The translations under genes and the position numbers were made by a program. The notes below the pieces were generated by a model. The model did no database searches. It saw only the letters and a list, made by a program, of their open reading frames with translations, and had not been told where the DNA came from. From NCBI GenBank assembly GCA_030425385.1, contig JAUIAH010000048.1:1-41251 (forward strand): DNA of 41,251 nucleotides, read 5' to 3'. This stretch comes from Verrucomicrobiia bacterium. Lineage in GTDB: Bacteria > Verrucomicrobiota > Verrucomicrobiia > Verrucomicrobiales > DEV007. Of this stretch, positions 17,420 to 33,534 are shown piece after piece (position 1 is the first letter of the stretch; every line of letters begins with the position of its first letter).

Positions 17420-17467
17420 GGCGGGGCAATCGTACACCCGCCAGCTCAAAGAGAGAAGCGAATTCGC

Positions 17468-18142
17468 CTATGCTTTCGCCCGGAAACGATAACCGACACC
17501 TCGCAGCGTCTCAATCAATGGCGGATCGAATCCTTTATCAATCTTGTTGCGTAACCGGCGGATACAGACATCCACGAGATTCGTGCCCGGGTCGAAATGC
17601 ATGCCCCAGACATGTGTGTAGATTTGGGTCCGCGTGAATACGCGTCCAGGCGATCGCATGAGGTATTCCAATAACGCAAATTCCCGCTGCGTCAGCGTGA
17701 TCGATTGCCCAGCCCGCTCCACTTCTCGCGTCATGAGATCCACTTTGAGATCCGCCTCATGCAAGACGCTACTCGTCTGTCCCGAGGCTCGCCGAAGCAG
17801 CGATTGAAGGCGCACGACCAATTCCTCGACATAAAAGGGCTTCGTCAAATAATCATCGGCCCCGATATGAAAGCCCTCCACGCGTTCGTTCAATTCACTG
17901 CGAGCGGTGAGAAGCATGACAGGGACACCATTTCCACGCTCACGCAATCCTCGCAAGACGCTCAGCCCATCACGTCCTGGCAGCATGATATCCAAGACGA
18001 TAGCATCGAAGGGTTCCTCGCACGCCATCTCAAAACCCGAGTCCCCGTCTTTACAAACGTCGACGACAAACCCGTGCTCCTCCAAGCCTTTCTTCACAAA
18101 GCCCGCGATCTTTGGTTGGTCCTCAACAACAAGAATACGCAT
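17468..18142 (-). CDS. OmpR/PhoB-family response regulator
   Basis: 224 residues starting MRILVVEDQP at 18142; a longer in-frame extension upstream would overlap the preceding gene. The receiver domain has the acidic pair (Glu7/Asp8), phosphoacceptor Asp51 in LDIMLPGRDG, Thr in LLTARS and Lys in TKPF. A winged-helix DNA-binding domain follows (LTQREFALLEYLMRSPGRVFTR; C-terminal TLRGVGYRF), the CusR/CopR-like arrangement. No histidine kinase gene is directly next to it: the nearest is some 7.6 kb upstream in the same gene train. The gene starts 2 bp after the coiled-coil membrane protein gene, so the two are surely co-transcribed. It is an orphan in the sense of lacking a dedicated adjacent kinase. 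Confidence 0.9.
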   Translation of the reverse strand: MRILVVEDQPKIAGFVKKGLEEHGFVVDVCKDGDSGFEMACEEPFDAIVLDIMLPGRDGLSVLRGLRERGNGVPVMLLTARSELNERVEGFHIGADDYLTKPFYVEELVVRLQSLLRRASGQTSSVLHEADLKVDLMTREVERAGQSITLTQREFALLEYLMRSPGRVFTRTQIYTHVWGMHFDPGTNLVDVCIRRLRNKIDKGFDPPLIETLRGVGYRFRAKA

Positions 18143-18144
18143 GA

Positions 18145-19674
18145 TCAGATCCCGACGATCTTCGTCAATCCATTCCAAAGCTTGGCCCAGAAATGGCCCG
18201 CCTGCCGGTGGTGTTCCGCCCGCGAAATCTGCTGGCAAATGAAGATCCCCTGTCCCGAGAAGAGATCATCGAAGAGGGGATTCTGATCGCGCAAATAGGA
18301 AATGAATGTCTCCGAACGCCGACTGCGATAACTCAAAGAGGGCGTGAAGCCAATGGTCGCCAATTGATTCGTGCGCCGCTCATTCCCCTCGCGCACGTTC
18401 TCTTGCGAAAGACGCTCGGCGCGCACGCCGCGATAGGCCCAGAGCACTAGCTTTGCGGGTCCTCGAAATTCGAAATAGCGAAACTGCAAGGTGATCCACG
18501 CATGCAGCGAGAAGAAACGCCAATGCGAGCGGATGCGCGTTTCTTCCCCATCCCGTTGAATGATAGCGGCGAGAAAGCTTGGGCGACACACCAAAGCTCC
18601 TCCCTCTGGCACTTCCACGATCGCCATCTCGATCTCCGCTTCGCTCTGGCTGGAAAGAGTCAAGCGTCGCTTCGACTCGGGATCACGATTATTCACTCGC
18701 GTGAGGAGAAAGAGGCCACAGGCCAGGCAGGAGAAAGGATATTTCCAACTGAAGAGAAATTTGGTCTTCTTGGTGAGATCTTCATCCGAAGCTTGATAGA
18801 AACGGTGCTGGATGGTGGCCGTCTCGCCCGGCTCTAAGACAATTTCTTGCGCCACCGCGGTCTTGGTAACCCGCACGGGAGCGTGGGCTGGCGTTCTGAG
18901 AATCACCGGCCGCCCCCATGAAAGAAGCGGTGCCCAGAAATAATAGAGGGCAATCTTGGCCAAGATGGGGACGAAGAGAATCGATAAGCTGAGGACAATG
19001 AGAGGCTTGCCCATGCGATCATAAGCCCGCCGGAGCAGCGTCTGCCCTTTGTTCACTCGCCCCTCCCAGACTTCAGCTTCCGATTTCATTTGAGCGTGTT
19101 CCTCTTCCGCCTGTGCCAGGGCTGCCGTGGTCGATTCGTGCTGTTCCGTTAGCGATGATTTCTGCTCATCGGCGTTCGCCTGAATGGCCTCGCGCTCGGC
19201 ATCCATGCTGGTCACCCGCTTTCGCAGCATCGCCTCTTGCTGCCGACTCGACGCGATCTGTCGCTCGATCGTCCGGATCTCGAATTCGGTATCAATCCCC
19301 CTCAACCGGTTCCAAACCTCCACCACCTTGGCCTTCAATCCCTTCAAGGTATCGAGCTTGGCTTGCCAATCCCGCATCTGTTTCTGGCGACTCCGCAGAT
19401 CGGCCTGCAGATCCTTGCGCTTGGCATCAAGACTCGCGAGCTGCTCGCCTAACTCGCTCTCCAACGCTTGCATCCGGTCGTTCAATTGCCCCATGTCTTC
19501 CTTAAGCTTTGTCACCAAAGCTTCCTTCTCCGCCACCTGCTCGGGCAGTTTCTCCAAATACTTCTGACTGGCCAGGTAGAGGGCGAAACCGCCGAGCACC
19601 AAGACCCACACCATGAGGATCAGCGCCGCCTTGGAAAAGACCCACTTGAGGACAGTCGTCAGAATACCGAACAT
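18145..19674 (-). CDS. Coiled-coil membrane protein with C-terminal beta-rich domain, family not recognised
   Basis: 509 residues. A transmembrane helix (about 15-33) is followed by a long charged coiled coil (about 37-215, rich in E, K, Q, R), a second hydrophobic segment (about 226-255, LIVLSLSILFVPILAKIALYYFW) and a beta-rich C-terminal domain. That domain loosely recalls the AIM24 family (patterns such as GPAKLVLWAYRG), a weak, unverified resemblance. The topology would place the coil in the periplasm or cytoplasm between two membrane passes. Start at the ATG at 19674, 15 bp after the BtpA gene; it ends 2 bp before the response regulator gene. No function can be assigned from sequence. 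Confidence 0.7.
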   Translation of the reverse strand: MFGILTTVLKWVFSKAALILMVWVLVLGGFALYLASQKYLEKLPEQVAEKEALVTKLKEDMGQLNDRMQALESELGEQLASLDAKRKDLQADLRSRQKQMRDWQAKLDTLKGLKAKVVEVWNRLRGIDTEFEIRTIERQIASSRQQEAMLRKRVTSMDAEREAIQANADEQKSSLTEQHESTTAALAQAEEEHAQMKSEAEVWEGRVNKGQTLLRRAYDRMGKPLIVLSLSILFVPILAKIALYYFWAPLLSWGRPVILRTPAHAPVRVTKTAVAQEIVLEPGETATIQHRFYQASDEDLTKKTKFLFSWKYPFSCLACGLFLLTRVNNRDPESKRRLTLSSQSEAEIEMAIVEVPEGGALVCRPSFLAAIIQRDGEETRIRSHWRFFSLHAWITLQFRYFEFRGPAKLVLWAYRGVRAERLSQENVREGNERRTNQLATIGFTPSLSYRSRRSETFISYLRDQNPLFDDLFSGQGIFICQQISRAEHHRQAGHFWAKLWNGLTKIVGI

Positions 19675-19689
19675 GCCCGTTAACTTACG

Positions 19690-20505
19690 TCAGGAATCGG
19701 CGCTGTCCATGGCGGCACGTAGACCAGCGACTCGTTGAGGGTCAACTGGATGCGCAAGAACGCCGTCTCGCTTCACAGCGGTCCCCACGATGAGGCCATC
19801 GGCGAAGGCGAGCAGTCGTTTGGCCGTGCTTTCCGAGGCTCCCGATCCCACCAAGAGCATGGCGTCCGGGCAGGTCTGACGCGTGAGGCGGAGATCGTCC
19901 ACATCCACCGATTGCCCCGTGGCCGTTCCCGAGATGATGAGCGCATCGGCCAATCCGCGCTTGAGCGTGTCTTCGGCGGCATCCGCCAGGCGTCCTCCGC
20001 CGAGAGGTTGAGCGTGCTTCACGTGCACATCAGCCCAGACTGCCACTTCTGGGCAGAGGTGGTTCCGCGCGCGAATGGTCTCAAAAGCCTGTCCCTGAAT
20101 CACTCCCTGATCCGTCACCATGGCACCGGTGTGGACATTCACGCGGATGAACTCGCCTCCCGTAGCCGCTGCCAGACCCAAACCCGATCGGGCGTCATTC
20201 CGCAGAACATTGTATCCAAACGGAATCTCCAGCGCTGCCGCCTGCAGCACACTGCCCACCCGACTCATCGCCGCCACGGTCTCCGCGGGAACACGCGCCG
20301 CGGTAAAGGGGACATCCCCGAAATTCTCAATCACCAACGCATCCGCCCCTCCCCTCACAAACGCCTGCGCGTCGGCCACCGCGTGGTCGATGACCTCTCG
20401 CATGCATCCGCCCCATCGTGGGGACCCGGGCAAGGGCAACAAATGGACCACACCGATCAAGGCGGGACGTTTCAATGATAGTTTCGGCAACATGCTAGGA
20501 ATCAT
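19690..20505 (-). CDS. BtpA-family TIM-barrel protein
   Basis: 271 residues. Conserved blocks of the BtpA/SgcQ family are visible: ALIGVVHLLPLPGSP near the N-terminus, DALVIENFGDVPF, PFGYNVLRND, GEFIRVNVHTGAMVTDQG, DVHVKHA, ADALIISGTATG and the phosphate-loop-like GLIVGTAVKRDG. In cyanobacteria BtpA supports photosystem I stability; elsewhere the family is of unknown, probably metabolic, function. The start codon is uncertain: the ATG at 20505 overlaps the K+ channel gene by 11 bp and has GAGA upstream, while an ATG at 20493 would start 1 bp after the channel's stop. It sits within the operon-like gene train. Confidence 0.85.
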   Translation of the reverse strand: MIPSMLPKLSLKRPALIGVVHLLPLPGSPRWGGCMREVIDHAVADAQAFVRGGADALVIENFGDVPFTAARVPAETVAAMSRVGSVLQAAALEIPFGYNVLRNDARSGLGLAAATGGEFIRVNVHTGAMVTDQGVIQGQAFETIRARNHLCPEVAVWADVHVKHAQPLGGGRLADAAEDTLKRGLADALIISGTATGQSVDVDDLRLTRQTCPDAMLLVGSGASESTAKRLLAFADGLIVGTAVKRDGVLAHPVDPQRVAGLRAAMDSADS

Positions 20506-21343
20506 TCAATTTCTCGCCGCAGATTCGACAAAAGCGCGCATCGGAAGTGTGCACTTGAGCACTGCAGTTCTTGCACGACCGATTGCTATAATCTTGTGGG
20601 TGATTCATTTGTCGGCTGATCTCCGCACCCACAATTCCGGTAGGCACCGCAATGATGGCGTAGCCCGTGATCATGGAGATTGAGGCAATGAATTTCCCCA
20701 GTGGATCCAATGGAACAATATCACCATATCCCACCGTCGTGATCGTCACAATAGCCCAATATGTACTCTTGGGAATGCTAGAGAACGCTGGGTTATCTGC
20801 TTCCACGATAAACATGATGGTGCCCATGATGATCGTGAGCGTCGCCATGGCAAAGAGGAAGACGATGATCTTGGGACGACTGGCTCGCAGCGCCGAGATG
20901 AGCAAATTGGCCCCACCGATATAACGCGCCATCTTGAAGATTCGAAACAAACGCAACAACCGCAGCACACGAATCGTGATGAGATAATGGGCATCTCCCA
21001 CAAAGAACAGTGTCAGATAGGTGGGAATGATCGAAAGAAGATCGACAATGCCAAAGAACGAACACATGTAGTGGAGCGGCTTCTTCACGGCGAGGATGCG
21101 CAGGATGTATTCGATCGTGAAGAGGATCGTGAAGACCCATTCCACCGTCAGTAGGACCCGGCCATATTGCGCATTGAAGCTCTCCACCGTTTCTAACATC
21201 ACCGCAAGCACGCTGAGAAAGATCAGAATGAGGAGCACGACATCGAAGAACTTGCCCGCGAAGGTGTCCGCCTCGAAGATGATGTCATGAATGCGGCGAC
21301 GCCAGGGGCTGAGCTTTCGCGGCGGCGCGTTGGTGGGTTCCAT
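20495..21343 (-). CDS. Voltage-gated-type potassium channel with C-terminal zinc ribbon
   Basis: 282 residues. Six transmembrane segments, with an S4-like helix carrying repeated Arg (RVLRLLRLFRIFK, about residues 124-136), and a pore loop with the selectivity filter TTVGYGD before S6. This is the Kv/KvAP-like single-domain architecture of prokaryotic ion-transport family channels. Unusually, the short cytoplasmic tail ends in a two-pair cysteine motif (CKNC ... CRIC), a zinc-ribbon signature that could bind metal and aid tetramerisation or regulation. The gene begins 7 bp downstream of the BioF-family gene's stop and overlaps or abuts the BtpA gene, so membrane potential or K+ handling appears linked to the same transcript. 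Confidence 0.9.
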   Translation of the reverse strand: MEPTNAPPRKLSPWRRRIHDIIFEADTFAGKFFDVVLLILIFLSVLAVMLETVESFNAQYGRVLLTVEWVFTILFTIEYILRILAVKKPLHYMCSFFGIVDLLSIIPTYLTLFFVGDAHYLITIRVLRLLRLFRIFKMARYIGGANLLISALRASRPKIIVFLFAMATLTIIMGTIMFIVEADNPAFSSIPKSTYWAIVTITTVGYGDIVPLDPLGKFIASISMITGYAIIAVPTGIVGAEISRQMNHPQDYSNRSCKNCSAQVHTSDARFCRICGEKLNDS

Positions 21344-21350
21344 GCCGCTA

Positions 21351-22502
21351 TCATTGAGCGGAGAGCGCTCCGGTCAATGAATCAATCTCTTCAGCAGAGT
21401 GTGCGGCAGAAACGGCGATACGAAGCCTCGCTTGCCCTCGAGCCACGGTAGGATAGCGGATCGCGGGCACGTGAAATCCGGCCCGCTCTAGAGAAGCTGC
21501 TTTCGCGAGAGCGTCTTCTTCCTTGCCCAAGATCAGCGGAAGGATGGCTGCGGGAGGCAGCGGCTGCGCCAACGCCTCCGCCAGTTGTCTCATACGAGCC
21601 CTCACACGTTCCCGCCGCTCGTCGCCCTCGGCACCACGCACGATCGCCAATGACGCACGTGCCGCCTCAGCCAGGGCGGGCGGCGGCGCGGTCGAGTAGA
21701 TGAAACTACGGGCGCGGTTGATCAGCATATCGACCATCGCAGCGCTCCCTGCGAGATAGCCCCCACTCACGCCTATCGCTTTCCCTAACGTCCCCATATG
21801 AAAGTCGACGCGATCCGTCAGCCCGTGCGCGGCCGCCAATCCGCGCCCTTCTGGACCTAACACTCCCACCGCATGCGCCTCATCGAGCAGAACTTTAGCC
21901 CCGTAGCGCTCTTTGAGATTGACGATCTCCTCCAGTGGCGTCACATCGCCATCCATGCTAAACACGGATTCTGTCAGGATATAGACATCCCCATGCGGGG
22001 AACGCTTGCGCGCCCATGCTAACAAAGAAGCCAATTTCTCCATATCATGATGTCGAAAGACACGGATAGTCGCGGCAGAGGCACGGCAGGCATCAATGAG
22101 AGACGCATGGCACAATTTGTCTAACAAGACGATACTGGACCGATCGAGAAAGGCGCTGGCAAATCCCGCCGCAGTAGCAAATCCGGTGGCAAACGTGAGC
22201 ACCGCCTCCGTCTGTTTGAAGTCCGCTAGAGCATCTTCTAATTGCCGATGACAGGGATGATCACCGGAGATCAAGCGAGACGCCCCGCTCCCCACCCCAT
22301 GGCGCGCCAAGGCCTCTTGGGCCGCCTCTATCAGCCGAGGATGATGCGCCAGGCCGAGGTAATCATTCGATGAGAACGAGATGAAGACGTTCCCATCCAC
22401 ATCGCGCACCCGATGATGCTGATCCGCACTCGCAAACGTGCGCAAACGACGCCGCAGATGCTGCTCCTCAAGAGCAGCCAGCGTCTCTGCGTAAGTCGTC
22501 AA
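21351..22502 (-). CDS. BioF-family alpha-oxoamine synthase (8-amino-7-oxononanoate synthase-like)
   Basis: 383 residues, the usual BioF length. A PLP-dependent fold-type I enzyme with all expected residues: His132 (DKLCHAS, stacks on PLP), Asp207 and His210 in DEAHAVG, and the Schiff-base Lys241 in TLGKAIG; GSGASRLISG matches the substrate-side loop. The family condenses an acyl-thioester with an amino acid: BioF (biotin), KBL, SPT, HemA, and also the autoinducer synthases CqsA/LqsA. Sequence alone does not tell these apart, and no other biotin gene is nearby, so I give no symbol. The start is TTG (22500-22502), overlapping the stop of the NtrC-like gene as TTGA; no ATG lies near. It follows three signalling genes in a coupled operon. 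Confidence 0.85.
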   Translation of the reverse strand: MTTYAETLAALEEQHLRRRLRTFASADQHHRVRDVDGNVFISFSSNDYLGLAHHPRLIEAAQEALARHGVGSGASRLISGDHPCHRQLEDALADFKQTEAVLTFATGFATAAGFASAFLDRSSIVLLDKLCHASLIDACRASAATIRVFRHHDMEKLASLLAWARKRSPHGDVYILTESVFSMDGDVTPLEEIVNLKERYGAKVLLDEAHAVGVLGPEGRGLAAAHGLTDRVDFHMGTLGKAIGVSGGYLAGSAAMVDMLINRARSFIYSTAPPPALAEAARASLAIVRGAEGDERRERVRARMRQLAEALAQPLPPAAILPLILGKEEDALAKAASLERAGFHVPAIRYPTVARGQARLRIAVSAAHSAEEIDSLTGALSAQ

Positions 22503-23929
22503 GAGGCGGATGAGACCTTACTACTCTTACCGCGCGCGGCGCGGGCATGCCCTTTCGCCTCTCGCTGATCAATCTCTAACTGATCCATACGATAACTGAG
22601 AATACGCGGCGTGGTCCCTAACAAATCGGCTGCACGACTCTTAATGCCGCGCGCCTCGTTGAGCGCTTCGATGATCAATGAACGCTGAAAGGCATCGGTC
22701 CGCTCTTCCAAAGTTCCCAGCTCGAATCCATTGTGACTCTCTTCCGCGGCCACCTTGCGATTCCACTGAATCTCCTGCGGAATATGGACGAGCTTGATGA
22801 CTTCAATTTCAGGATGAACGAACAAGATCCCTTCGATCGTATTCTCTAATTCACTCACATTTCCCGGCCAATCATAGTTCCGCAGGGCTTCCATGGCGGA
22901 GGCATCGATATCCTTCACGGCGACCTGCATGCGACTGCGCAGCCGGTTGATAAGGGCATAGGCGAGCAACGGAATATCTTCCGGGCGCTCACGGAGAGAT
23001 GGAATCTTTAACGCACGCTCTTCCGCTAGGGCCTGAAGCCTTGGCACCGCTAGACCCGGCATTGCCTTGTCATTTCCCATGGTCAACGAGGCGACCACGC
23101 GACAGTTTGTCTTCACGTCGAGCTCGCCCTGCTCTCTCACAAAACAGCCTTCCTCAATGAGACGCAGGATTCTCTCCTGCGAACTGGCCGGGACCAGATG
23201 CAGATCCTCGATGTAGATTGTCCCACCTCCTGCCAAATCCAGCTTGCCGAGTTTCCCAAGATCGCCCCCATCAAGGACCGTCTCGGTTTCGTCTCCAAAG
23301 AACTCGCGATCGAAACTGTGCTCACGCCCAGGGAGACACTGCGCCTTGATGAACGGCAACTCCGATCGGAGACCAATCGAATGAATCAAACGGGCGACGG
23401 TGTCGGCTCCCGCACCGCGTTCGCACGTGATGAAGACGTGCCCATTGTTCATCGATTGCTGCCGCACATCGTGAAGGAAATTGCGATACACAATGGATTC
23501 CCCAGGCATCTCATGGAGGAAGCCATTCTCAATGGACTCTCTGCGCGTGGCTTCGACCTGCCGCTTCTGATCAGCGACCACCATGGCGCGCTCCGCAATC
23601 AACCGCACGTCTTTGACGTTGAATGGCTTGGTGATGAAATCGACCGCTCCTAAACGAATCGCTTCGGCGATGGTATTCGTGGATGAAATGGCGCTCAACA
23701 TGATCACCGGCGTGTTCGGATAGCGCTGGCGCAACTGCTTGAGAATCTCGATACCATCATCCTTAGGGAGAATGATATCCAAGACGAGCAACTCAATCCG
23801 ATTGGACGCGAGCACGTCAAAGACCTGACGAACATCGCTCGCAACAAGGACCTCATAGCGCTCGTGAAAGATCGCTTTGAGAGATTCCACGGTGCCTAAT
23901 TCGTCATCAACAACCAGGATCTTCTTCAT
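22499..23929 (-). CDS. NtrC-like response regulator with degenerate AAA+ domain
   Basis: 476 residues. The receiver is intact: Asp8/Asp9, phosphoacceptor Asp51 (VLDIILP), Ser79, Lys101 (TKPF). A C-terminal Fis-type helix-turn-helix is present (about 415-450, IIEALNEARGIKSRAADLLGTT). The central domain aligns with sigma-54 activators (SLRERPEDIPLLA near 311 and NYDWPGNVSELEN near 351), but the Walker A loop reads CERGAGADT (169-177) without GK[ST], the GAFTGA loop is absent (about 213-225), and Walker B reads TIYIEDL with the D-E order swapped. It is therefore unlikely to hydrolyse ATP or drive sigma-54 open-complex formation. It probably acts as a DNA-binding repressor or sigma-70-type regulator. 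It overlaps both neighbours by 4 bp. Confidence 0.85.
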   Translation of the reverse strand: MKKILVVDDELGTVESLKAIFHERYEVLVASDVRQVFDVLASNRIELLVLDIILPKDDGIEILKQLRQRYPNTPVIMLSAISSTNTIAEAIRLGAVDFITKPFNVKDVRLIAERAMVVADQKRQVEATRRESIENGFLHEMPGESIVYRNFLHDVRQQSMNNGHVFITCERGAGADTVARLIHSIGLRSELPFIKAQCLPGREHSFDREFFGDETETVLDGGDLGKLGKLDLAGGGTIYIEDLHLVPASSQERILRLIEEGCFVREQGELDVKTNCRVVASLTMGNDKAMPGLAVPRLQALAEERALKIPSLRERPEDIPLLAYALINRLRSRMQVAVKDIDASAMEALRNYDWPGNVSELENTIEGILFVHPEIEVIKLVHIPQEIQWNRKVAAEESHNGFELGTLEERTDAFQRSLIIEALNEARGIKSRAADLLGTTPRILSYRMDQLEIDQREAKGHARAARGKSSKVSSAS

Positions 23930-25782
23930 ACTATAACTTTGGGGAACGTGATATGGTAAGTGTCGTTGCTCTGTAATTCATTCATCTCCAAGCCCCCACC
24001 GAGATCCTCGATGAAGCGAGCAAGGTCGCTGGAGGCAGAACCAGCAACACGTCCCACCGCCACCGAGACACGGCGGCGAATTACTAAGCGCACTTCTTGC
24101 GATTGTCCAAGATCCTTCCACTCAATCATCAGACCATTCGCAATCCAATCCTCCGCACTCGCCAGATGCGCCAAGCGCTCCGTCAACCCGCGGCGTTGCC
24201 CCGGCGGCCACCGAAGGAAGACATCTCGGGTATTGTGAACGTGACGAGCATCTAAAGATTCACCAATTTCTAGAAAGACATCCTCCAACAGGTGCCGCAA
24301 GGCAAACTCGGGAGTCCTCTCCGGCTCATCGCCCGCACGTCCAATCTGACGATCCAACGACGCAGAGAGGTGCTCCAAGCGATCGACCGAATTGGATACA
24401 AGAGGAATGAATTCCTCGCAGAAAGCAGGATCCAGCCGCCGCTCGGGAAAGAGATCGATGAACGCTCGAATGGCCACGAGAGGATCGCGAATCTTCGTGC
24501 TCAAAGTCGAACGCGACAGGCCACCCGGTTGGCGACTCGATGCCAGGACCAGCTCCGGCGTCACGTCACGCAAGATCACCAAGAAGCGCTTCTTCGCTGC
24601 GTCCTGGGCATCCACACTGGTGACCGCGTATTGCCCATAGCCATCAATGGGTTTCCAATGATGGGGGCTCCGTCCGCCATCCGCCAACGAGGCTTGAATC
24701 ACCTCGAACAGGGTGGGTTCCGCATCTTTCAACGAGACGATCTTGGAGAAACGGTCTGGAAACCACTCCTTCGCATGAGAGTTCTGCCATTGCACGCACC
24801 CTTTCTCATCAAGCATCAAGACCGCCGTCGCCAATCGATCTAGCAGCCCGTCATTCAACTCATCACTGCTCGAATCGGCCACTCGAACCTCCGACCTTTC
24901 CAGAAAGATGGTGAGGCAACTGGTGATCATGCTCAACTCTCTCAAGTCATCGAGGCTCAATTCCTCAACAGAGCCATGACCAACGAACAACCACCCTAAC
25001 AGACCACCCTCACCCACCATCGGAATCATTGCCTGTGCCTGACATTCGGCGAGAATATTCTCACAAAGCGATCGCAACGCCTCCGGTTGTCGACTTGAGA
25101 GCGATTCATGAACGACTTGACGCCGTTGCTCCAGATATCGCACCAGGGCGTGATCGGAAGGGTAGGCATTCTGCAAGGATGCATGTCGCTTCCCCATCCA
25201 CAAATCGAACCCTCCTGAGGCACTCCTCCGATAGACACCAAGCTGTCCAATGTCATAATGCTGTTCCAACCAATCCATGAACCGCGTGATGAGTTCGGTG
25301 GGAGATTGAAACCCTGTGAGTGCTTGCAACAGTCCACAGATCACCTGCCCTGGTCTGGGAGTCGATTTCGTCTGCCACTGACGCTGCTGTTCCGCTTCCG
25401 CAAGCTGCGCTTGATAGGTCCGCACAGTCGAGAGAAAGCTCTGACAGACACTGAACTGCCGGAGAAATGCACGGTTAGTCGCCTCAGGCGAAACCATGGC
25501 GAAGGCAAATCGCTGATCGAGCGTCAGAATGGGCTCGCTTGCATCTTCCCCAATCACAATGATAGGGCAAAGGTGAGGTGTGTTGTGAAGGCTCTCGACC
25601 GCTTGATAGAGATCCTCATTCGTCGCATCGACAAACACCACGACCGGCCCATGGCGGGTCGCCAACTCTAGCAGTGCGGTGATATCATGAGTGGCCTTGC
25701 CAGTGGCGTGCCCGTGCAGGAGCCCGGTCACTCGTTGCCTCAAGTGAGGATCGCTGCTGTGAATCAAGCAAATGGGATTCAT
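23926..25782 (-). CDS. Soluble pseudo-histidine kinase (receiver-like, GAF, PAS, degenerate kinase core)
   Basis: 618 residues, no transmembrane segment. Residues 1-110 resemble a receiver fold (VVVFVDATNED near 47-57) without the full active site. A GAF-like region (about 145-295) and a PAS-like region (about 315-408, TAVLMLDEKGCVQW) follow. The DHp helix reads STKIRDPLVAIRAF (428-441), aligning with the neighbour's AHEIKNPLVAIRAF: the phosphoacceptor His is replaced by Thr429. The ATPase part keeps a final beta strand but lacks recognisable N, G1 and G2 boxes. It is apparently a paralogue of the upstream kinase that has lost catalysis and may act as a sensor subunit or allosteric partner. 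It overlaps its neighbours as ATGA on both sides. Confidence 0.85.
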   Translation of the reverse strand: MNPICLIHSSDPHLRQRVTGLLHGHATGKATHDITALLELATRHGPVVVFVDATNEDLYQAVESLHNTPHLCPIIVIGEDASEPILTLDQRFAFAMVSPEATNRAFLRQFSVCQSFLSTVRTYQAQLAEAEQQRQWQTKSTPRPGQVICGLLQALTGFQSPTELITRFMDWLEQHYDIGQLGVYRRSASGGFDLWMGKRHASLQNAYPSDHALVRYLEQRRQVVHESLSSRQPEALRSLCENILAECQAQAMIPMVGEGGLLGWLFVGHGSVEELSLDDLRELSMITSCLTIFLERSEVRVADSSSDELNDGLLDRLATAVLMLDEKGCVQWQNSHAKEWFPDRFSKIVSLKDAEPTLFEVIQASLADGGRSPHHWKPIDGYGQYAVTSVDAQDAAKKRFLVILRDVTPELVLASSRQPGGLSRSTLSTKIRDPLVAIRAFIDLFPERRLDPAFCEEFIPLVSNSVDRLEHLSASLDRQIGRAGDEPERTPEFALRHLLEDVFLEIGESLDARHVHNTRDVFLRWPPGQRRGLTERLAHLASAEDWIANGLMIEWKDLGQSQEVRLVIRRRVSVAVGRVAGSASSDLARFIEDLGGGLEMNELQSNDTYHITFPKVIV

Positions 25783-28232
25783 AATCCAGCTCGGCTCGTT
25801 TCTACCTGCCGAGGAGGTGTTTCGCTGGCTGTCGATTGGCGGATTGGGAATCGCACGATCGCAGTCGTCCCCTGGTTGGGTGTGCTTTCGAATTGCAGGG
25901 TTCCATGGTGTTGAGAGACAAGATTTGCGGTAAGCGATAGTCCGAGCCCTGTCCCCCCTGGCTTCGTGGTGTAGAAAGGCACAAGCACTTTGCGAATCTG
26001 TGAGGCGGTCATTCCCTTCCCATCATCCTGAATCTGAACCTCGATCACGTCGCCCAGCTCGGCATCACTCCCCACACATGTGGAGATCTTGAGATGCCCA
26101 TTCTCGTCCATGGCGTCGTTGGCATTCAATAACAGATTCACCACAATCTGTTTCCACTGTCCCGCATGCCCCATGATGTGATCTGGCGACGCTCGAAGGT
26201 CCAAATCCACTTCCAGCCGTTTCTTGCGAAACTCCGCAGCGAGCAATCGTACCGACTCTTCGATCCCTTCATGCAAACTGATGGGCCCAAGTGTGGTCTG
26301 CTCGTGGCGCGCGTAACTCAGCAGCCCACCGATGGAGCGGTTGATCCGTTCCACCTCCCCATCCAGAAGATTGGAGAAGGTTGATAGGAACTCTTTATCT
26401 TGAATTCGCTCTGGTAAGAGTTGTGCAAAGGCCCGAATCGCCACGAGCGGATTCTTGATCTCGTGAGCCACACTCGCGGAGACTTTGCCAATGGTGGCCA
26501 AGCGGTCTGACTGACGCACATGCTTCTCCAGTCGACGCTCTTCTGAGATATCGTGGATCACAATCAATGCTCCGAGATGCACCCCTTCTTGATCTCTCAG
26601 CGGCGCCCCACCCACGCGCACGGATCGCGAGATCTCAGGATCATCTGGATCCAGCAACTCCCACTCTTCATTTCGCGCCTCGCGTCCCTTCTCTAGAATA
26701 TCGCCTAACAAAGCCCTGAAGGCTTCCGGAAGAGTGTCCACTCCTTCTCCTTCTCCTTCTCCTCCAAGGAGGCGAATCGCTTCAGGATTCCGATGGGTGA
26801 TCCGCCCCTGCATGTCAAAAGCCACCACCCCACTGACAAGGTTGTCTAACAATGTCTGATAAACGATCTCTCGATTGGCGACTTCAGTCGAAAGCGATGC
26901 ATTCTCCAGCACATTGCCGAACCGCCTCACAAGATCGTCAAGTGCCGCCAAATCGCTTTCGGAATAGAGGCGCCCCGACAGCCGTTCTGCCAAATACACC
27001 ACGACTCGCAGACCTTCCTTTCCAGGGATCCCCAGGGCCACTTCCCATCCATTGGTCGCCAATTCGCGCATGATCGCATCATTCTCTTCGCCGCCTCGAC
27101 GGCGACTCAAGTGATGCGAAGAAAGCGGCGCCCGATCCCGTTGGAGCCTCGTCTCGATGAGCGAGCTATCCCCAGCTTCCATCACGACAGCCCTATCCGT
27201 CCCAGCGACTTCTCTGAGAATGGTCTCAAAAGCTTGGAAGAGCTCACCGCGATCCTTGGCGACTCTCGTCACGGCCGCCGCGCGTCGCCAACCTGCTAAG
27301 GAATCAATCCGGTCCTCTCTAGCAAAGGCACGACTCAGAAAGATCTTCAGACGGTGTTGCGCGCTTCCCATGGTCAGCACGACCACCAATGTCGCCAACA
27401 GGCTGGCCCAAGTGATGTCATGGAAGAAGGTCGCACCGCCTAACAAATGACTCGCCACCCAATAGGTAAGGGCATAGCAAGAGCTAAGATAGCAGGCAAG
27501 AGCAAGACCCGAAACTAGGCGGCGCACCACTGAGCGCACTTCCATGATCTGCTTCGTCGCGATTCCATAAGCGATGACCGCATCCATCAGCAGCACCCAG
27601 AGGGGTGCAAACATGACGGCTTGGCTATCCTCTGCCACAAGCGGAATCACCATCGACGGCAGAATGCCTAACACGACAAGGATCCCAATACTCGCGAGGA
27701 GAAACTGCAGTTCCAGTTGGCGCAATCCGCGCGCCTCTCTGAGTCCGCGGATCAGTTGATAGACTTCATTTCCTGTGATGATGAGAAACCACAGGGGAAA
27801 GAGAAAGACGAGCGCCCCCTCGGAAGGTTCAGGAATGCGACCGGGAAAGAAACGCACGCCTTCCATGTAGAGAGGGCTGATGCAGAACGGAATGAGAAAC
27901 AGGTAAGCCAGAAACTGCCAGCGACACTGCTTCAGCAGCGTCCAATGTGAAGATTCCCCTGACAGAACCGCCAACCGCACCATCCGAAATCCGATCGGCA
28001 CCAAGCATCCAATGATCGAAGCCGTGCGCACCCATGCAAGAAAGGTGGCTGGTTCCTTGGAGGCAAAGGAAGCGACCAGCGCTCCCAGCCACAGGCTACC
28101 AAAGAGGGTGAGGACAAGGTATTGGCGGTTTGCCAGCCGATGGGGATTTGCCCATAGCACTAAGACACCGAGAACCAGATTGAGCCCGAGGCTCACCAAA
28201 GCAATGAGCAGCGCTGCAGTGAGAGGCGTCAT
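25779..28232 (-). CDS. Membrane histidine kinase with 7TM-type N-terminus, GAF and PAS domains
   Basis: 817 residues. About seven to nine hydrophobic segments fill residues 5-290, resembling the 7TM histidine kinase sensor module seen in PrsK-like kinases. A GAF-like domain (about 325-445) and a PAS domain (about 460-565, LVSGVVAFDMQGRITHRNPEA) follow. The kinase core is complete: His590 in VAHEIKNP, N box NLLLNANDAM (699-708), G1 DDGKGM (736-741), F box PFYTT and G2 GGTGLGLSL (759-767). It is the only catalytically intact kinase in the operon, so it probably phosphorylates the NtrC-like receiver encoded two genes downstream. A small in-frame hexanucleotide repeat encodes GEGEGEG between residues 491 and 497. 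It overlaps the ketosynthase-like gene by 4 bp. Confidence 0.9.
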   Translation of the reverse strand: MTPLTAALLIALVSLGLNLVLGVLVLWANPHRLANRQYLVLTLFGSLWLGALVASFASKEPATFLAWVRTASIIGCLVPIGFRMVRLAVLSGESSHWTLLKQCRWQFLAYLFLIPFCISPLYMEGVRFFPGRIPEPSEGALVFLFPLWFLIITGNEVYQLIRGLREARGLRQLELQFLLASIGILVVLGILPSMVIPLVAEDSQAVMFAPLWVLLMDAVIAYGIATKQIMEVRSVVRRLVSGLALACYLSSCYALTYWVASHLLGGATFFHDITWASLLATLVVVLTMGSAQHRLKIFLSRAFAREDRIDSLAGWRRAAAVTRVAKDRGELFQAFETILREVAGTDRAVVMEAGDSSLIETRLQRDRAPLSSHHLSRRRGGEENDAIMRELATNGWEVALGIPGKEGLRVVVYLAERLSGRLYSESDLAALDDLVRRFGNVLENASLSTEVANREIVYQTLLDNLVSGVVAFDMQGRITHRNPEAIRLLGGEGEGEGVDTLPEAFRALLGDILEKGREARNEEWELLDPDDPEISRSVRVGGAPLRDQEGVHLGALIVIHDISEERRLEKHVRQSDRLATIGKVSASVAHEIKNPLVAIRAFAQLLPERIQDKEFLSTFSNLLDGEVERINRSIGGLLSYARHEQTTLGPISLHEGIEESVRLLAAEFRKKRLEVDLDLRASPDHIMGHAGQWKQIVVNLLLNANDAMDENGHLKISTCVGSDAELGDVIEVQIQDDGKGMTASQIRKVLVPFYTTKPGGTGLGLSLTANLVSQHHGTLQFESTPNQGTTAIVRFPIRQSTASETPPRQVETSRAGL

Positions 28233-29488
28233 GGATCAAAGGAACTCATCACGAGCGAACAGTTACCGCCGCCAACCCCGTGCGCATTGAGCAACACGCG
28301 AGAGACGGCCTGCACCCGACACGCTTTCGGAATGTAGTCAAGGTCACAATCGGGATCTGGATGGTCATGATTTGCCGTGGGAGGGAGGATGCCTTCACTC
28401 AGCGTGAGGGCGCTGGTCACCACCTGCATAGGACCCGCAGCGCTAAAGGGATTGCCCACGACGCCTTTGATAGAACAGATGGGAAGCGAATATGCATGAT
28501 GCTGAAACACCTCTTTGATGGCTTCCGTCTCTATACGGTCCATCACGGGATGCCCCGGCCCCCATGCATTGACGTGATCGACATCTTCTGGGCGACAACC
28601 GGCATTCCTCAGCGCTGCCCGCATGGAATGTACAAATCCCATTCCAGGATCGCTCTCAGGCGGATCAATCTGGTTGGCGTAGCCTAACAACTCGGCCTTG
28701 GGCGTGACCCCGCGACTAAGGGCATGGCCCAAGCTTTCCAGAACAACGACGCATGCCCCTTCCGAAATCACCCCAGAGTCGCGATCGCGATCAAAGGGGC
28801 GGCTAGCGCGTTCGGGCTCTTCATTCCGACACGAGGCCATGCCTGCTGCGACCAAGTTCGCGAATGGAACCGGCGACAATGGAGAATCTGCCCCACCCGC
28901 AATCACGAGTTCAGCCGCTCCTCTCCGGATGAGTTCGGCAGCTTGACCAATGGCATCCAACCCAGAGGCACACGCCGTCGAGACCGTCGTGACAAATTGC
29001 GCATCCCCTAACAAACCTGCGATTGCTGCCGCCGTCGCTTGCGGGGCGGCCGCCGTCACGAGGACTGGGCTCGCTCGCCGGTGCGACCGTTGCAGAGCAA
29101 CACTTGAGGCATGGACCACATCGAAGGCGCCAATACCGCCCCCCATCACCACGTGCACCGGCGCAAATCGTCCCCGCCCCTCCGGCAGGCGCGCCTCTAA
29201 CAAAGCCTCTTCCAAGGCAACCAACGCCATCTGCGTGTGCCGTGCGCATCGCTGAAACTTGATGGGTGATCGTTCCACCCAGTCGGATGCGGTGCAGGTA
29301 TCCGCCTCCCCCGCGATCCGCGACGCATAGGGTGACGCATCAAATAACGATATCTCGCGAATCGCACTCCGACCGTCTTTCACCATTTCCCAGAATTTCG
29401 GAACGCCATGTCCCGTGGGCCCAACAATGCCGTAACCGGTGATGACTGGTTTGATACGTCGAGAATGGAGGAGTGCGGCCACGACCAA
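28229..29488 (-). CDS. Beta-ketoacyl synthase-like (KAS II fold) protein lacking both catalytic His
   Basis: 419 residues from a TTG at 29488; a GTG at 29482 is an alternative, and there is no ATG in reach. Thiolase-fold KAS features: Cys173 in VSTACASG, PFDRDRDSGVISEGACVV (230-248), Lys341 in SIKG and a C-terminal NAHGVGGGN. In place of the NAHGTST block it reads NAWGPGHP (Trp309 for His), and the second GHxxGAAG block reads GNPFSAAG (Asn346 for His). With Cys kept and both His lost, decarboxylative condensation as in FabF is unlikely; acyl transfer, acyl binding or a chain-length-factor-like role are possible. It is the first gene of the coupled operon that also encodes two sensors, a regulator and an AONS enzyme, and is divergent from a flavoprotein gene. 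Confidence 0.85.
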   Translation of the reverse strand: MVVAALLHSRRIKPVITGYGIVGPTGHGVPKFWEMVKDGRSAIREISLFDASPYASRIAGEADTCTASDWVERSPIKFQRCARHTQMALVALEEALLEARLPEGRGRFAPVHVVMGGGIGAFDVVHASSVALQRSHRRASPVLVTAAAPQATAAAIAGLLGDAQFVTTVSTACASGLDAIGQAAELIRRGAAELVIAGGADSPLSPVPFANLVAAGMASCRNEEPERASRPFDRDRDSGVISEGACVVVLESLGHALSRGVTPKAELLGYANQIDPPESDPGMGFVHSMRAALRNAGCRPEDVDHVNAWGPGHPVMDRIETEAIKEVFQHHAYSLPICSIKGVVGNPFSAAGPMQVVTSALTLSEGILPPTANHDHPDPDCDLDYIPKACRVQAVSRVLLNAHGVGGGNCSLVMSSFDP

Positions 29489-29565: not shown

Positions 29566-31158
29566 ATGAATCCTGTTTCTGAGAGTTGGGAGGCCTGGGA
29601 ACGCTGCCTGGGGAAATCCTCTATCATTGTTGAGAAAGCAGCCTTGGCGAACTACGAGGCTAATGCCTCGGGCATCTCCCATACCGTGGCGGGCGTGCTG
29701 CGCCCGAGAGACACCGCCGAGGTGCAAGAAGTGGTTCGTATCGCGGCCGCCCACAGGCAGACTCTCCACCCCATCAGCCGCGGGCACAATTGGGGCTATG
29801 GCTCGCGCCTTCCCTGCGAGCGCACAGGCGCGGTGCTGCTCGATCTCAGTCGCATGGGCCGCATCCGCAACGCGGACGCCGTTTCCACTTCCTCACCCGT
29901 GGCCGAGATCGAACCGGGCGTGACCCAGGGACAGATGGCGGATTGGATACGCGACCGCGAGTTGCCCCTCTTTCTGAACGTCACCGGAGCCGGTCGCGCG
30001 ACCAGCCTTCTTGGCAACAGTCTGGAGCGCGGCGTCGGTTACTTCGGCCTGCGCACCAGTGACCTGACAGATCTCGAAGTCGTCCTGGGCACCGGGGAAC
30101 TCCTCCGCACCGGACCTGGTGCTCTCGCTCCTCAAGCCAAGAGCCAATTCCACTACCCCTATGCCCTGGGGCCCTCCCTGGATGGTCTCTTCTATCAGTC
30201 GAACCTCGGCGTCGTGACCGCGGCGGGATTCCGCCTTCGGCATCGCCGCCCCTGCCACGCCACCTTGCTGATTCGCCTGCGCGATACGAGCGCCTTCGCC
30301 GCCTACATCGATGCTCTCGGGGACCTGGGGCGCCAGGGATTGGTAGAGTGCGTGCTTCACGTGGGCAGTCCGAGCAGGATCCGAGCCACCCTCAGCCCAC
30401 TGGTTTATCGGACTCTCCTCACGCAGGGCCGTTCACCAGGGGCTGCCCTGCGGACCGAGGTCGAATCCTTGGTCGCTCGGGAATTTAGAGAGACCTGGAC
30501 AGCCGTGGGTCCGCTCTTCGGAACGGCCAAACAGGTGGCAGCCGCGCACGAGGCGATCCATGCCCGGATGCAAGCCCTCGCTGATGTCGAGTTGCTGCGA
30601 GACGACGCGGCCGCAGGCGCATCCGACCCCCTTACCAAAGCCATGCTTGATCCTTTGGTCGATCTTTGTCACGGGAATCCCACTGATGGGGCATTGGACA
30701 GCCCTCTTTGGTCGGTCGGCCTCGATCCTCTGAAAAATCCGGCAGAAATCGATCAGACTTCAGCAGGGATCCGATTCTGTTCCGCAGCCCTTCCCCTAGA
30801 TGGAGAGATCGTCGCCTGGGCCATTGCCAAGGAGGAATCGGTGCTCAAACCCTTCGGATTCGAGGCCAACATCACGCTCAATTTGATCGATGAGAAGAGC
30901 GCTTTACTCATCACCAACTTCGCCTTCGACAAGACACAACCCACCCAGGCTAGCCGCGCGCAGCATGCCGTGGAGGCCGTCTTCAGCGCCTGGGAGACGG
31001 AGAAAGTTTACCCCTATCGCTTGGGGGTGGGCGAGGCGGGCTGCTTTAAACCAACCCCCACCTTTTGTAGGTCCCTGGCCGATCTCAAGCAGTCCTTTGA
31101 CCCACACAACGTCTTCAGCGGCAACAAGTATGCCTTCTCCGACCGCAGCCATGCATGA
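29566..31158 (+). CDS. FAD-binding oxidoreductase of the VAO/p-cresol methylhydroxylase type
   Basis: 530 residues. An N-terminal FAD-binding type 4 domain with PISRGHNWGYGSR (about residues 66-78), ITRGAGRATSLLGNSL-like flavin contacts near 145-160, and the block GPSLDGLFYQSNLGVVTAAG (about 203-222). That block closely resembles the GPYxDGLFxQSNxGIVT signature of vanillyl-alcohol oxidase and p-cresol methylhydroxylase flavoproteins. The C-terminus (LKQSFDPHNVFSGNKY) is the usual closing motif. It probably oxidises a phenolic or other alcohol-type substrate; no cytochrome partner gene is adjacent. The ATG at 29566 has no obvious ribosome binding site. It is the only plus-strand gene in a 20-kb stretch and appears somewhat GC-richer than its neighbours. 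Confidence 0.8.
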   Translation: MNPVSESWEAWERCLGKSSIIVEKAALANYEANASGISHTVAGVLRPRDTAEVQEVVRIAAAHRQTLHPISRGHNWGYGSRLPCERTGAVLLDLSRMGRIRNADAVSTSSPVAEIEPGVTQGQMADWIRDRELPLFLNVTGAGRATSLLGNSLERGVGYFGLRTSDLTDLEVVLGTGELLRTGPGALAPQAKSQFHYPYALGPSLDGLFYQSNLGVVTAAGFRLRHRRPCHATLLIRLRDTSAFAAYIDALGDLGRQGLVECVLHVGSPSRIRATLSPLVYRTLLTQGRSPGAALRTEVESLVAREFRETWTAVGPLFGTAKQVAAAHEAIHARMQALADVELLRDDAAAGASDPLTKAMLDPLVDLCHGNPTDGALDSPLWSVGLDPLKNPAEIDQTSAGIRFCSAALPLDGEIVAWAIAKEESVLKPFGFEANITLNLIDEKSALLITNFAFDKTQPTQASRAQHAVEAVFSAWETEKVYPYRLGVGEAGCFKPTPTFCRSLADLKQSFDPHNVFSGNKYAFSDRSHA

Positions 31159-31205: not shown

Positions 31206-31493
31206 CTACTCGACAGAATATCGGAAATCTGCTAGATCCCGTGCCACATGCGCAGGTATGGGAAATCGCAGCAGCAGCACCACCTTCGGCTTTCTCTCAA
31301 AGAGATGGCTTCCAAGGAGTGTCGCGACCGCAGCCTGAAGGCACGTAAACTGACAGCCAACACGAAGTCCAACCCTCCCTGCAAACCTGAAGAAGACCCT
31401 GGCGGGGGCCCGTGGCGCAAGATATGGGATCGGCTCCGCGGGCCTCGCTAGGCGTCTCTCTTCAGGGAGATCTGCATTAGAAGGAGAGGCCAC
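31206..31493 (-). CDS. Doubtful small hypothetical ORF
   Basis: 95 residues from a GTG, overlapping the 3' end of the TonB-dependent receptor gene by 17 bp. It is rich in Arg, Pro and Ala and ends AHVARDLADFRYSVE; no domain or signal was recognised. The same 318-bp gap holds an equally plausible-looking plus-strand ORF at 31248-31451, so coding is not demonstrated for either. Otherwise the interval 31159-31476 would be a noncoding region with no recognisable RNA or mobile element. Confidence 0.2.
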   Translation of the reverse strand: MASPSNADLPEERRLARPAEPIPYLAPRAPARVFFRFAGRVGLRVGCQFTCLQAAVATLLGSHLFERKPKVVLLLRFPIPAHVARDLADFRYSVE

Positions 31494-33534
31494 AACGCAC
31501 GCCGAGCACTGTCGGTGCCCCCACCGTCCCCGCGTTCAGATCGGGAGACATGTTCTGATAATAGACGTCGTCGGTAAGATTCTGGCCAAAGAGGCTGAAC
31601 TCAAAGCCGTCATTCTCATAACCGACAGCGGCATTCAGCAAGGTGTAGCCCGACTCTCGAAAGCGTGACTCATTAAAGTCACTGAAATACGTTTCGCCCA
31701 CGTGCGTCACCTCCACACGCCCAAACCAACCAGAACGCGCGCGATAAGTCAGCGCGAGAGACGCATCCCACTCCGGCACGAAAGGAGCCTCATTGCCGGA
31801 AAGATCTCTGCCCGAAAGCGGATCGAGGAAACGGTCAAACCCAGTCTTCACATAGCCCACGGAACCCTCCAAAGACAGCCGGTCCGAAAGCTGAGCGAAC
31901 ACTTCTAACTCGGCTCCATAAGAATCGGCCTCCTGCGCATTCAAGACCGCGTAATCAGTCCCAACCAAGGAGCGCTCGACCTGATAGTCACGGATATCAT
32001 TGTAGAAGAGTGCTAGATTTGTGCGCACCCGGTCCTGCGCCCAGCGCTTCTTCCAACCCACTTCCGTCGTCCACGAACGTTCCTTGTCGTATTCGGCAAT
32101 GGTAGGATCATCGACAAACGCACTGTAGCCACCCGGCTTGTAAGCCAATCCCGTCGACACGTAGATCAACGAGGAATCATCCAGCTCATAGTCCATGCCC
32201 ACTCGCGGGCTCACAAAGAGATACGCCTCATCCTCACGAATCGTCGGCACCGGACCTAACAATCCAAAGGCATCGCGTTTGATCGATTTCTCCACGTAGT
32301 CCACCCGCAGCCCCAGATGAAAGCCCCACCGATCCAGGCCCTCGTACGACAGTTGGCCGAACACCGCATAACTATCCTCGTCCAAAGCGTAATCTGTCGT
32401 CGTCGATCCAGGGAAGACACTGCCATCAGGCAACGGCACGAGGAAGTCGCGGCGTGTCTCGCCTTCCACATCCGTCGACGACACATAGGCGCCCACCGTC
32501 CATTCCCATTCCCCCCCCTCAACGGAAGACCAACGGAACTCTTGGGAAAACAAATCCTGTTCTTGAATGATCAACGACTCGTTGCCCGGAAAGGGCCCTA
32601 GATCGAGATCAAAGTGATAGGGATCCAATTCCCACTCACGCCGTGAAGTCACGCTGAGGAAAGTGTAAGCGTCCCCTTCGTAAGCAATGCGCAAGGCCTG
32701 ACTGTTCGATCGCTGCTTGGACTCCCCATGCACGTCAGAGGCCACCTCGAAAGGATCATCCGCTCCTAACGGCGTCAGCCGCACATCGCCGTCGTCAAAC
32801 TGGTCCGCCGCGGCTGACAAACGCACCTCCCAACCCGGACCGGGACGCCAATACAAGGTTCCAGATCCGCTGGTGTGCTGCTGATCATCAGGATGCGTTC
32901 CTAACGTTGAATTATAAAGAAATCCATTCCGTTGCGAGTGGCTCCCGCCCAACTTCAGATACAACACATCCTCCACCAAAGGCCCCATCACCATCCCATC
33001 TCCCATGAAGGACTCGTAGCTTCCGTAACTTGCCGAGAAGCGGCTCTCCCAGGTGTTTGTCGGCGCCTTCGATACCACGTTAATCACACCACCATACGGA
33101 TTCCGCCCAAAGAGCCATCCCTGCGGCCCCCGGAATACCTCCACACGATCAACCGCATGCCACTGAGTCGAGTAGGCGAACACATTTCCCAATGGCACAT
33201 CGTCCACATACTGAACGACTGACGGCGGACCAAAAAAAGGCGTGTTTGTCAGACCACGCATGGAAGCCACATCACCGTAACTACGCAGCCCCGTGTCTGT
33301 CATCGACAGATTGGGAATCACCTCACTTAGTTCCCTGGCATCTTGGCGATTCCCCGTCACCAATTCCTCCCCACTCACCGCGCTCGCACTCAACGGCCAC
33401 GCCTGATAGTCGGTCACTTCACCAAACACCATCATTGGGTCCAGCATCGGCTGCTCGTCCACTTCCTGCGCGGCGAGCCAAGAGGGCAATGCTAGGGCGA
33501 ATAGGAAACAACGTGATCGTAGAGCGGAATTCAT
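31477..33534 (-). CDS. TonB-dependent outer membrane receptor
   Basis: 685 residues. Signal peptide (residues 1-22, ending WLAAQ), a TonB-box-like MMVFGE near residue 34, then a plug domain with ARELSEVIPNL, SMRGL and EVFRGPQGWLFGRNPYGGVINV (conserved RGPQ-x-x-x-x-GRN...GG-x-I-N-V pattern). A barrel of alternating strands follows, ending in a terminal Phe (VRCGLSF). Plug motifs such as SMRGLTNT and the overall form match ferric-siderophore/iron-complex or related small-molecule receptors, but the ligand cannot be read from sequence. It follows the exported RraA-like gene by 81 bp on the same strand, so the two probably form an operon for import or processing of an organic compound or metal complex. 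Confidence 0.92.
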   Translation of the reverse strand: MNSALRSRCFLFALALPSWLAAQEVDEQPMLDPMMVFGEVTDYQAWPLSASAVSGEELVTGNRQDARELSEVIPNLSMTDTGLRSYGDVASMRGLTNTPFFGPPSVVQYVDDVPLGNVFAYSTQWHAVDRVEVFRGPQGWLFGRNPYGGVINVVSKAPTNTWESRFSASYGSYESFMGDGMVMGPLVEDVLYLKLGGSHSQRNGFLYNSTLGTHPDDQQHTSGSGTLYWRPGPGWEVRLSAAADQFDDGDVRLTPLGADDPFEVASDVHGESKQRSNSQALRIAYEGDAYTFLSVTSRREWELDPYHFDLDLGPFPGNESLIIQEQDLFSQEFRWSSVEGGEWEWTVGAYVSSTDVEGETRRDFLVPLPDGSVFPGSTTTDYALDEDSYAVFGQLSYEGLDRWGFHLGLRVDYVEKSIKRDAFGLLGPVPTIREDEAYLFVSPRVGMDYELDDSSLIYVSTGLAYKPGGYSAFVDDPTIAEYDKERSWTTEVGWKKRWAQDRVRTNLALFYNDIRDYQVERSLVGTDYAVLNAQEADSYGAELEVFAQLSDRLSLEGSVGYVKTGFDRFLDPLSGRDLSGNEAPFVPEWDASLALTYRARSGWFGRVEVTHVGETYFSDFNESRFRESGYTLLNAAVGYENDGFEFSLFGQNLTDDVYYQNMSPDLNAGTVGAPTVLGVRCGLSF

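Follow-up and report, generated by a model that had tools for sequence, protein, structure and literature searches.

We analysed a stretch of 41,251 nucleotides (contig JAUIAH010000048.1 of assembly GCA_030425385.1, hereafter the window) from a bacterium of the Verrucomicrobiia, with a focus on five consecutive minus-strand genes. They encode a FabF-type ketosynthase (KS), a histidine kinase (HK1), a pseudo-histidine kinase (PHK), an NtrC-type regulator, and an alpha-oxoamine synthase (AONS). We found that the KS-HK1-PHK-NtrC part is a divergent branch of an operon present in many families of the phylum Verrucomicrobiota, in which KS and HK1 are typically followed by a second histidine kinase (HK2). 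The five genes are as follows.

28229..29488, minus strand: KS, FabF-type ketosynthase of the operon family; Cys kept, Trp at the H303 position, Asn at the H340 position, TTG start
25779..28232, minus strand: HK1; membrane region at the N terminus, PAS, His-bearing HisKA, HATPase; motifs intact
23926..25782, minus strand: PHK, by its sequence a degraded HK2; receiver-like, GAF, PAS, HisKA in which Thr replaces His; no ATPase motifs left
22499..23929, minus strand: NtrC-type regulator; receiver Asp and Fis helix-turn-helix (HTH) intact; AAA+ Walker A/B and GAFTGA lost
21351..22502, minus strand: bioF (AONS), most likely outside the module; adjoins a module KS here only (1 of 63 loci)

An earlier sequence-only reading of this DNA had proposed that an acyl-chain enzyme and membrane-kinase signaling are linked in a coupled operon, and such an operon is real. 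The open reading frames (ORFs) of the window contain all five genes at the claimed coordinates, with 4-bp overlaps at 28229-28232, 25779-25782, 23926-23929, and 22499-22502, and the protein identities hold in domain and family matches. The overlaps, which are common in bacterial operons, suggest translational coupling as had been claimed; they do not set the fixed protein ratio that had also been read from them. Both KS and bioF begin with TTG, and thus their exact N termini are uncertain.

KS, HK1, and HK2 form the core of an operon found across the phylum

Searches of the family and order alone pointed to a lineage-specific oddity: HK1 was found in 1 of 74 genomes of the family and PHK in 1 of 386 genomes at the order level, where ordinary HK2s could escape a query as diverged as PHK. 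This candidate explanation was overturned by a search of the phylum with KS. At E <= 1e-75, 84 of 387 genomes matched, and 60 of the 84 KS places besides the window were fetched (40 of the top 41 and 20 lower ones). HK1 lay directly downstream of KS in 42 of these 60 places (37 of the 40 upper and 5 of the 20 lower ones), with operon KSs 37-47% identical to that of the window, and HK2 came next; of 36 HK1-HK2 pairs besides that of the window, 28 overlap by 4 bp. A search of the class with a profile of the HK1 N terminus matched 35 of 384 genomes; 20 places were fetched, of which 17 have KS-HK1-HK2. Scanning named genomes with six octapeptides, which is not sensitive outside the phylum, returned ten loci, three of them Opitutia metagenome-assembled genomes (MAGs; Opitutus sp. 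GAS368 isolate, Lacunisphaera sp., and Opitutia bacterium). In these three, a receiver (REC)-HisKA-HATPase protein (REC-kinase) precedes KS and HK1; the Opitutus locus has a 4-bp overlap between this gene and KS, and an HK2-like gene after HK1. The genome searches scored a subset of the candidates in each genome, the analysis took in 60 of the 84 phylum KS places besides the window and 24 of the 39 HK1 places in the class, and related loci do not represent independent events.

The 42 phylum, 17 class, and 3 Opitutia MAG loci together with the window make up 63 KS-HK1 loci. HK2 was matched in 59 of them, and three of the four misses are contig ends. An NtrC, REC-Fis, or Fis regulator stands directly after HK2 in 28 of the 63 loci, the window included, following a recount of 32 matches in which four (L139, L230, L244, and L248) were set aside as receiver-only matches to other genes. 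No regulator match was found right after HK2 in 35 loci, at least 28 of which have several kilobases of sequence left. Thus, KS-HK1-HK2 is the core of the operon, to which a regulator may or may not be added; the counts rule out an invariant four-gene unit with NtrC as its last gene. The operon is apparently undescribed, as a literature search, with most subscription papers out of reach, found no title or abstract describing one like it.

Operon ketosynthases lack the FabF residue set

The window KS matches the N- and C-terminal ketoacyl-synt domains of Pfam and scores 331 bits against the FabF model TIGR03150, under the equivalog cut-off of 493.75. Where FabF has Cys-His-His, it reads Cys-Trp-Asn; the positions H303 and H340 follow what we take to be the Escherichia coli FabF numbering. 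The ketosynthase is thus indeed "His-less," as had been noted, with its catalytic Cys kept. In the alignment, the Cys is present in all 63 operon KSs and the complete Cys-His-His set in none. The set was found in 52 of 52 non-operon FabF-type proteins examined. It is present in 29 of 29 examined KSs among the matches listed for the order besides the window, which are 35-38% identical to the window KS. The operon KSs carry Cys-His-Asn (32), Cys-Tyr-Asn (10), Cys-Trp-Asn (5, with the window), Cys-Trp-Thr (5), Cys-Trp-Ser (2), Cys-His-Cys (4), Cys-Asn-His (4), or Cys-His-Ile (1). An aromatic residue at position 303 is therefore shared by the window and 21 other module KSs: Tyr occupies the first His position in 10 of 10 KSs of one family (f10), and Trp in the window and 11 of 11 Opitutaceae-type KSs. 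Because it is common to the latter group, the Trp of the window KS is not a private decay. The KSs of L160, L164, L168, and L174 mirror the usual change, with the second His kept, Asn at the first, and Arg in place of a nearby Lys.

A tree built with the catalytic columns removed separated 46 operon KSs from 52 FabF-type proteins on one branch, with a support of 100 in the Shimodaira-Hasegawa-like approximate likelihood ratio test (SH-aLRT). A second tree of 75 rows split off 12 FabF-type proteins likewise (SH-aLRT 99). The window KS lies directly upstream of HK1, has altered residues, and falls on the operon side of the split, the three features by which the operon KS family is recognized.

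Pairwise ratios of nonsynonymous to synonymous substitution (dN/dS) for KS were 0.03-0.19 in five close pairs with estimable dS (0.40-1.76), including a pair with Tyr (0.033) and two pairs with Trp that share one member (0.10 and 0.12). In the same pairs, the values were 0.055-0.25 for HK1 and 0.04-0.14 for HK2; a sixth pair was saturated for both KS and HK1. Such low KS ratios, in the Tyr and Trp pairs as well, show that the altered KSs are maintained in relatives. No close relative of the window KS that would allow a direct dN/dS estimate was found.

Kinases and regulator

HK1 carries PAS, HisKA, and HATPase domains behind seven hydrophobic N-terminal segments, as judged by a simple hydropathy count; the match to the Pfam 7TM model is just 6.5 bits (E 9.2). 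Its phospho-acceptor His is present in 37 of 37 aligned sequences. PHK gave no Pfam match at 1e-3 and showed weak PhoR/PnpS similarity over ~304-516 and weak similarity to GAF. Its phospho-acceptor position is Thr and its N and G ATPase boxes are lost, so that the His and N/G boxes of a functional histidine kinase are missing and the earlier assignment as a pseudo-histidine kinase stands. A single-sequence structure prediction of PHK was unusable (mean predicted local distance difference test score 36). The HK2 His is kept in 52 of 54 sequences, from which L159 was excluded because its supposed HK2 is the REC-kinase; the exceptions are the window (Thr) and the distant genome G453 (Phe), whose HK2 has no recognized ATPase domain. 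The Opitutus HK2 retains the His, with an ATPase domain not recognized by Pfam at 0.05. Judged from these residues, PHK is a degraded HK2. In G453, the pseudo-HK2 is likewise accompanied by a degenerate NtrC, and the pseudokinase state of the two genomes would reflect either two losses or one shared loss.

The window regulator has Response_reg, Sigma54_activat, and HTH_8 domains (Pfam). The Walker-A Lys is replaced by Ala, Walker B is altered, and GAFTGA is absent; thus, it lacks the hallmarks of a sigma-54 activator (bacterial enhancer-binding protein), which agrees with the dead ATPase seen by the sequence-only reading. Among 25 aligned regulators, the window included, 17 have an AAA+ domain; of these, 6 carry an exact GAFTGA, and all but the window (16) keep the Walker-A Lys. 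Five of the 25 are REC-Fis proteins and three are Fis only. The receiver Asp is kept in 22 of 22 receiver-bearing regulators. NtrC without GAFTGA acts at sigma-70 promoters (PMC10274813). In L149, L163, and L173, the regulator is a Fis-type HTH protein of 69 or 70 residues that still overlaps HK2. In L238, L239, and L240, all of family f102, HK1 is directly followed by an NtrC that resembles the NtrC of the window more than the one of L140; with neither KS nor HK2 present, the module is reduced in these loci.

The AONS gene is most likely an ordinary bioF

The sequence-only reading had likened the AONS gene to the signal synthases CqsA and LqsA. Its product has a class I/II aminotransferase fold, and bioF was the best of 11 models matched: it scored 403.7 bits against TIGR00858, under the equivalog cut-off of 426.45, versus 170.8 bits against the alpha-hydroxyketone synthase model (cut-off 428). 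Its best Protein Data Bank match was BioF at 272 bits; CqsA, at ~91 bits, came last of 54 sequences at 1e-20. In an AONS tree with E. coli BioF and Kbl, the E. coli BioF and the kbl pair sit on long branches. Only two AONS homologs were found in the window genome (8.0 Mb, 95.5% complete), the window gene and one at C6:512504, which we read as kbl because it directly follows a gene read as threonine 3-dehydrogenase. The genes bioA, bioB, and bioD scored over their cut-offs on other contigs. The window gene completes this set, and the check for a separate bioF returned no other candidate. A homolog of the window gene is present in 66 of 74 family genomes and in 41 of 41 of good quality. Near a module KS, an AONS gene was found within 9 kb in 1 of 63 loci, the window itself. 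Most likely, therefore, this is an ordinary bioF that became attached to the operon and forms no part of the module, and the comparison with CqsA and LqsA most probably fails.

No KS or PHK match was found near bioF in 20 fetched family neighborhoods. NtrC lies beside bioF in two of these (G050 and G052), and kinase matches occur in two: a hybrid kinase adjoining bioF in G051 and a kinase ~7.5 kb away in L054. Other bioF neighbors, examined elsewhere, include thiD-like, S41-peptidase-like, dacA-like, and pilT-like genes. A dedicated signaling or lipid system was to be doubted, in the sequence-only reading, if the AONS gene were a true and sole bioF in an unconserved gene order. This largely describes the AONS gene and does not describe the others: KS-HK1-HK2 is conserved far beyond the family and is joined by an NtrC-type regulator in 28 of 63 loci, and bioF is not conserved with it.

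These data also bear on the proposal that the AONS enzyme makes an alpha-hydroxyketone-type signal sensed by HK1. The translational coupling of an AONS-family gene to the operon speaks for it. The bioF scores, the biotin genes, and the single occurrence beside a module KS were taken to rule out alpha-hydroxyketone quorum sensing by this gene, and the gene occurs in every good-quality family genome while HK1 and PHK were found in just one genome of the family; we regard the proposal as very improbable.

Remnants of the arrangement in sister genomes

The three other genomes of the genus (G050, G051, and G052), which are fragmented into 470-740 contigs, yielded no KS (beyond a FabF-level match), HK1, or PHK. 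G050 and G052 keep the gene order NtrC, bioF, K channel, BtpA, SMC-like, and response regulator, and their NtrC and bioF are under purifying selection (pairwise dN/dS 0.10 and 0.12). In G050, a TonB receptor is followed by the remnant of a flavin adenine dinucleotide (FAD) oxidase, a stretch matching the PHK C terminus, and then NtrC. A similar PHK stretch lies upstream of NtrC in G052, where the contig ends ~770 bp upstream of NtrC. The matches to PHK reached 41.6 bits in G050 and 34.7 bits in G052, compared to maxima of 26.6 and 25.8 bits in 200 mononucleotide shuffles each. Because this HK2 remnant lies upstream of NtrC-bioF in both genomes, the joined arrangement is older than these species and was lost in at least two of them.

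In G051 (L036:4646-7554), a hybrid kinase ORF overlaps bioF in the place of NtrC, followed by the K channel. Thus, within one genus, bioF lies behind signaling genes in two ways, after NtrC (G050 and G052) or after a hybrid kinase (G051).

Genes around the module

Three further genes flank the operon in the window.

29566..31158, plus strand: vanillyl alcohol oxidase (VAO)/p-cresol-methylhydroxylase (PCMH)-type FAD oxidase; divergent from KS
31477..33534, minus strand: TonB-dependent receptor, by homology
20495..21343, minus strand: K+-channel-type protein; downstream of bioF, neighbor only

Neighbors were counted within 9 kb of KS in the 63 loci, with cut contigs counting as absent. A REC-kinase was found in 55 loci, a FadL/TodX-type outer-membrane channel in 32, and a VAO/PCMH-type FAD oxidase in 16, the window included. 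The window has the oxidase and the TonB receptor, and neither FadL nor REC-kinase was found within this distance of its KS. A receptor homologous to that of the window was present in two loci (the window and G453), and it possibly stands in place of FadL. No FadL match was found within 9 kb of KS in the 10 f10 and 11 Opitutaceae-type loci. A PlsY-type cluster was seen in 4 of 41 loci, and a K+-channel-type gene adjoins bioF in all three sister genomes. In G453 (L158:4288-5556), an AMP-dependent CoA-ligase-like gene follows NtrC, at the place of bioF in the window.

A possible acyl-responsive kinase module

The reading that we favor, whose chances we consider evenly balanced, is that the operon encodes a kinase module that reads an acyl-derived cue via a KS no longer working like FabF. 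The KS would load an acyl chain on its Cys. At least where Trp or Tyr replaces the first His, it would not perform FabF-type decarboxylative condensation, and the KS may serve as an acyl transferase or as a sensor of acyl status, for a hydrophobic cue that enters through FadL (or a TonB receptor). HK1 and its partner kinases would then phosphorylate the regulator, where one exists. In the window branch, HK2 would have turned into a pseudokinase acting as a scaffold or a modulator of HK1, and the regulator would work through its receiver and Fis domain without sigma-54. The bioF gene would have been captured downstream in this genus and may be controlled by the regulator. As this reading rests on KS, HK1, and HK2, its standing is unchanged by the narrowed regulator count. 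Somewhat short of an even chance, in our estimate, is the broader claim that many members of the phylum carry a novel class of signaling system, in which the Cys-keeping KS serves a multi-kinase circuit as its dedicated producer of an acyl signal or as its acyl sensor, and in which pseudo-KS, pseudokinase, and ATPase-less NtrC are stable working states.

Several observations weigh against an acyl-responsive module. What the sequences show is the order of the genes and the patterns of residues, whereas the cue, the KS reaction, and the regulon are inferred. Condensation or some other catalysis may persist in many operon KSs, since the Cys-His-Asn set of 32 of the 63 is that of FabH (PMC4807248). 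The KS is not indispensable either, as the remaining 3 of the 20 class HK1 loci, all from family f102, have HK1-NtrC without KS or HK2, and a regulator is often missing after HK2 where sequence suffices to see one. The KS of L183 (Cys-His-Ile) lies close to the FabF set in both trees, and the window KS has a long, weakly placed branch (nearest-kin support 88 and 70 in the two trees). Moreover, within the order, KS, HK1, or PHK was seen in no genome other than that of the window, and the failure to find KS and HK1 in the three sister genomes also fits decay.

Decay in the window lineage is a serious rival, though we judge it unlikely. In this scenario, relaxed selection has cost KS, HK2, and the NtrC ATPase their catalytic function, and the operon is heading for the loss seen in the sisters, as the missing genes and the HK2 remnants there and the long branch of the window KS would lead one to expect. 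All reading frames of the window are intact, however, with coupled junctions and intact HK1 motifs; the aromatic residue at 303 recurs in 21 other module KSs, with close pairs carrying such a residue under purifying selection; and the pairing of pseudo-HK2 and degenerate NtrC recurs in G453. Equally unlikely, in our view, is a signal synthase with its receptor, similar to CqsA/CqsS, in which acyl transfer by KS yields a diffusible acyl-derived signal that crosses the outer membrane through FadL or a TonB receptor, and HK1 is the 7TM receptor. The layout places a synthase next to a 7TM kinase, and FadL accompanies about half of the loci (32 of 63). Precedents are PqsBC, a quorum-signal-producing condensing enzyme whose active site is altered (PMC4807248), and the uptake of long-chain N-acyl homoserine lactones via FadL in Sinorhizobium (PMC9938287). 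Against this, there is no known signal, the KS variants differ in residues needed for the chemistry, and the f10 and Opitutaceae-type loci gave no FadL match. Still a little less likely is a regulator of envelope-lipid or of aromatic or fatty-acid metabolism, with FadL importing a hydrophobic nutrient, the VAO-type oxidase processing it, the kinases in control, and KS as an output enzyme. The FadL/TodX and VAO/p-cresol methylhydroxylase homologies and the PlsY-type gene of a few loci suit such a role; yet the oxidase and the PlsY-type cluster occur in just 16 of 63 and 4 of 41 loci, and it is the kinases, rather than the oxidase, that accompany KS.

Relation to known systems

The operon KS shares full-length homology and the catalytic Cys with FabF/KAS II, from which it differs in its residue set, its separate branch, and its place among kinases. 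CqsA/CqsS and LqsA/LqsS also set an acyl-chain enzyme beside a membrane kinase; there the enzyme is an AONS, whereas here it is a KS, with several kinases. To our knowledge, PqsC/PqsBC is not encoded in an operon with kinases of this type. As a FabH-type condensing enzyme with a non-canonical residue set it resembles the operon KS, but it belongs to the KAS III rather than the KAS II family and its product is known; its acyl-enzyme step is independent of its His (PMC4807248). The Caulobacter and Rhodobacter NtrC proteins without GAFTGA are likewise receiver-bearing and have lost the sigma-54 loop (PMC10274813), whereas relatives in the module are missing the AAA+ domain entirely and, in some cases, the receiver as well. 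AtoS is the best NCBIfam kinase match of HK1 and AtoC the second-best match of the regulator, but both lie far below the cut-offs (258.8 versus 646 and 221.6 versus 714 bits), and the AtoS match covers only the PAS and kinase part.

A conserved link between a protein of the fatty-acid-synthesis type and several kinases would give the two-component systems of a little-studied phylum a new kind of accessory or source of signal. One operon with a natural series of losses, of condensing residues, of a kinase, and of a sigma-54 ATPase, would also be useful for understanding how pseudoenzymes keep a job. Because the named Opitutus and Lacunisphaera MAGs carry the KS-HK1 layout, cultured relatives may serve as a model.

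Elsewhere in the window, positions 14123-18238 encode a large secreted-looking protein (lamin-tail/CotH-like by eye) beside an OmpR-type-looking response regulator.

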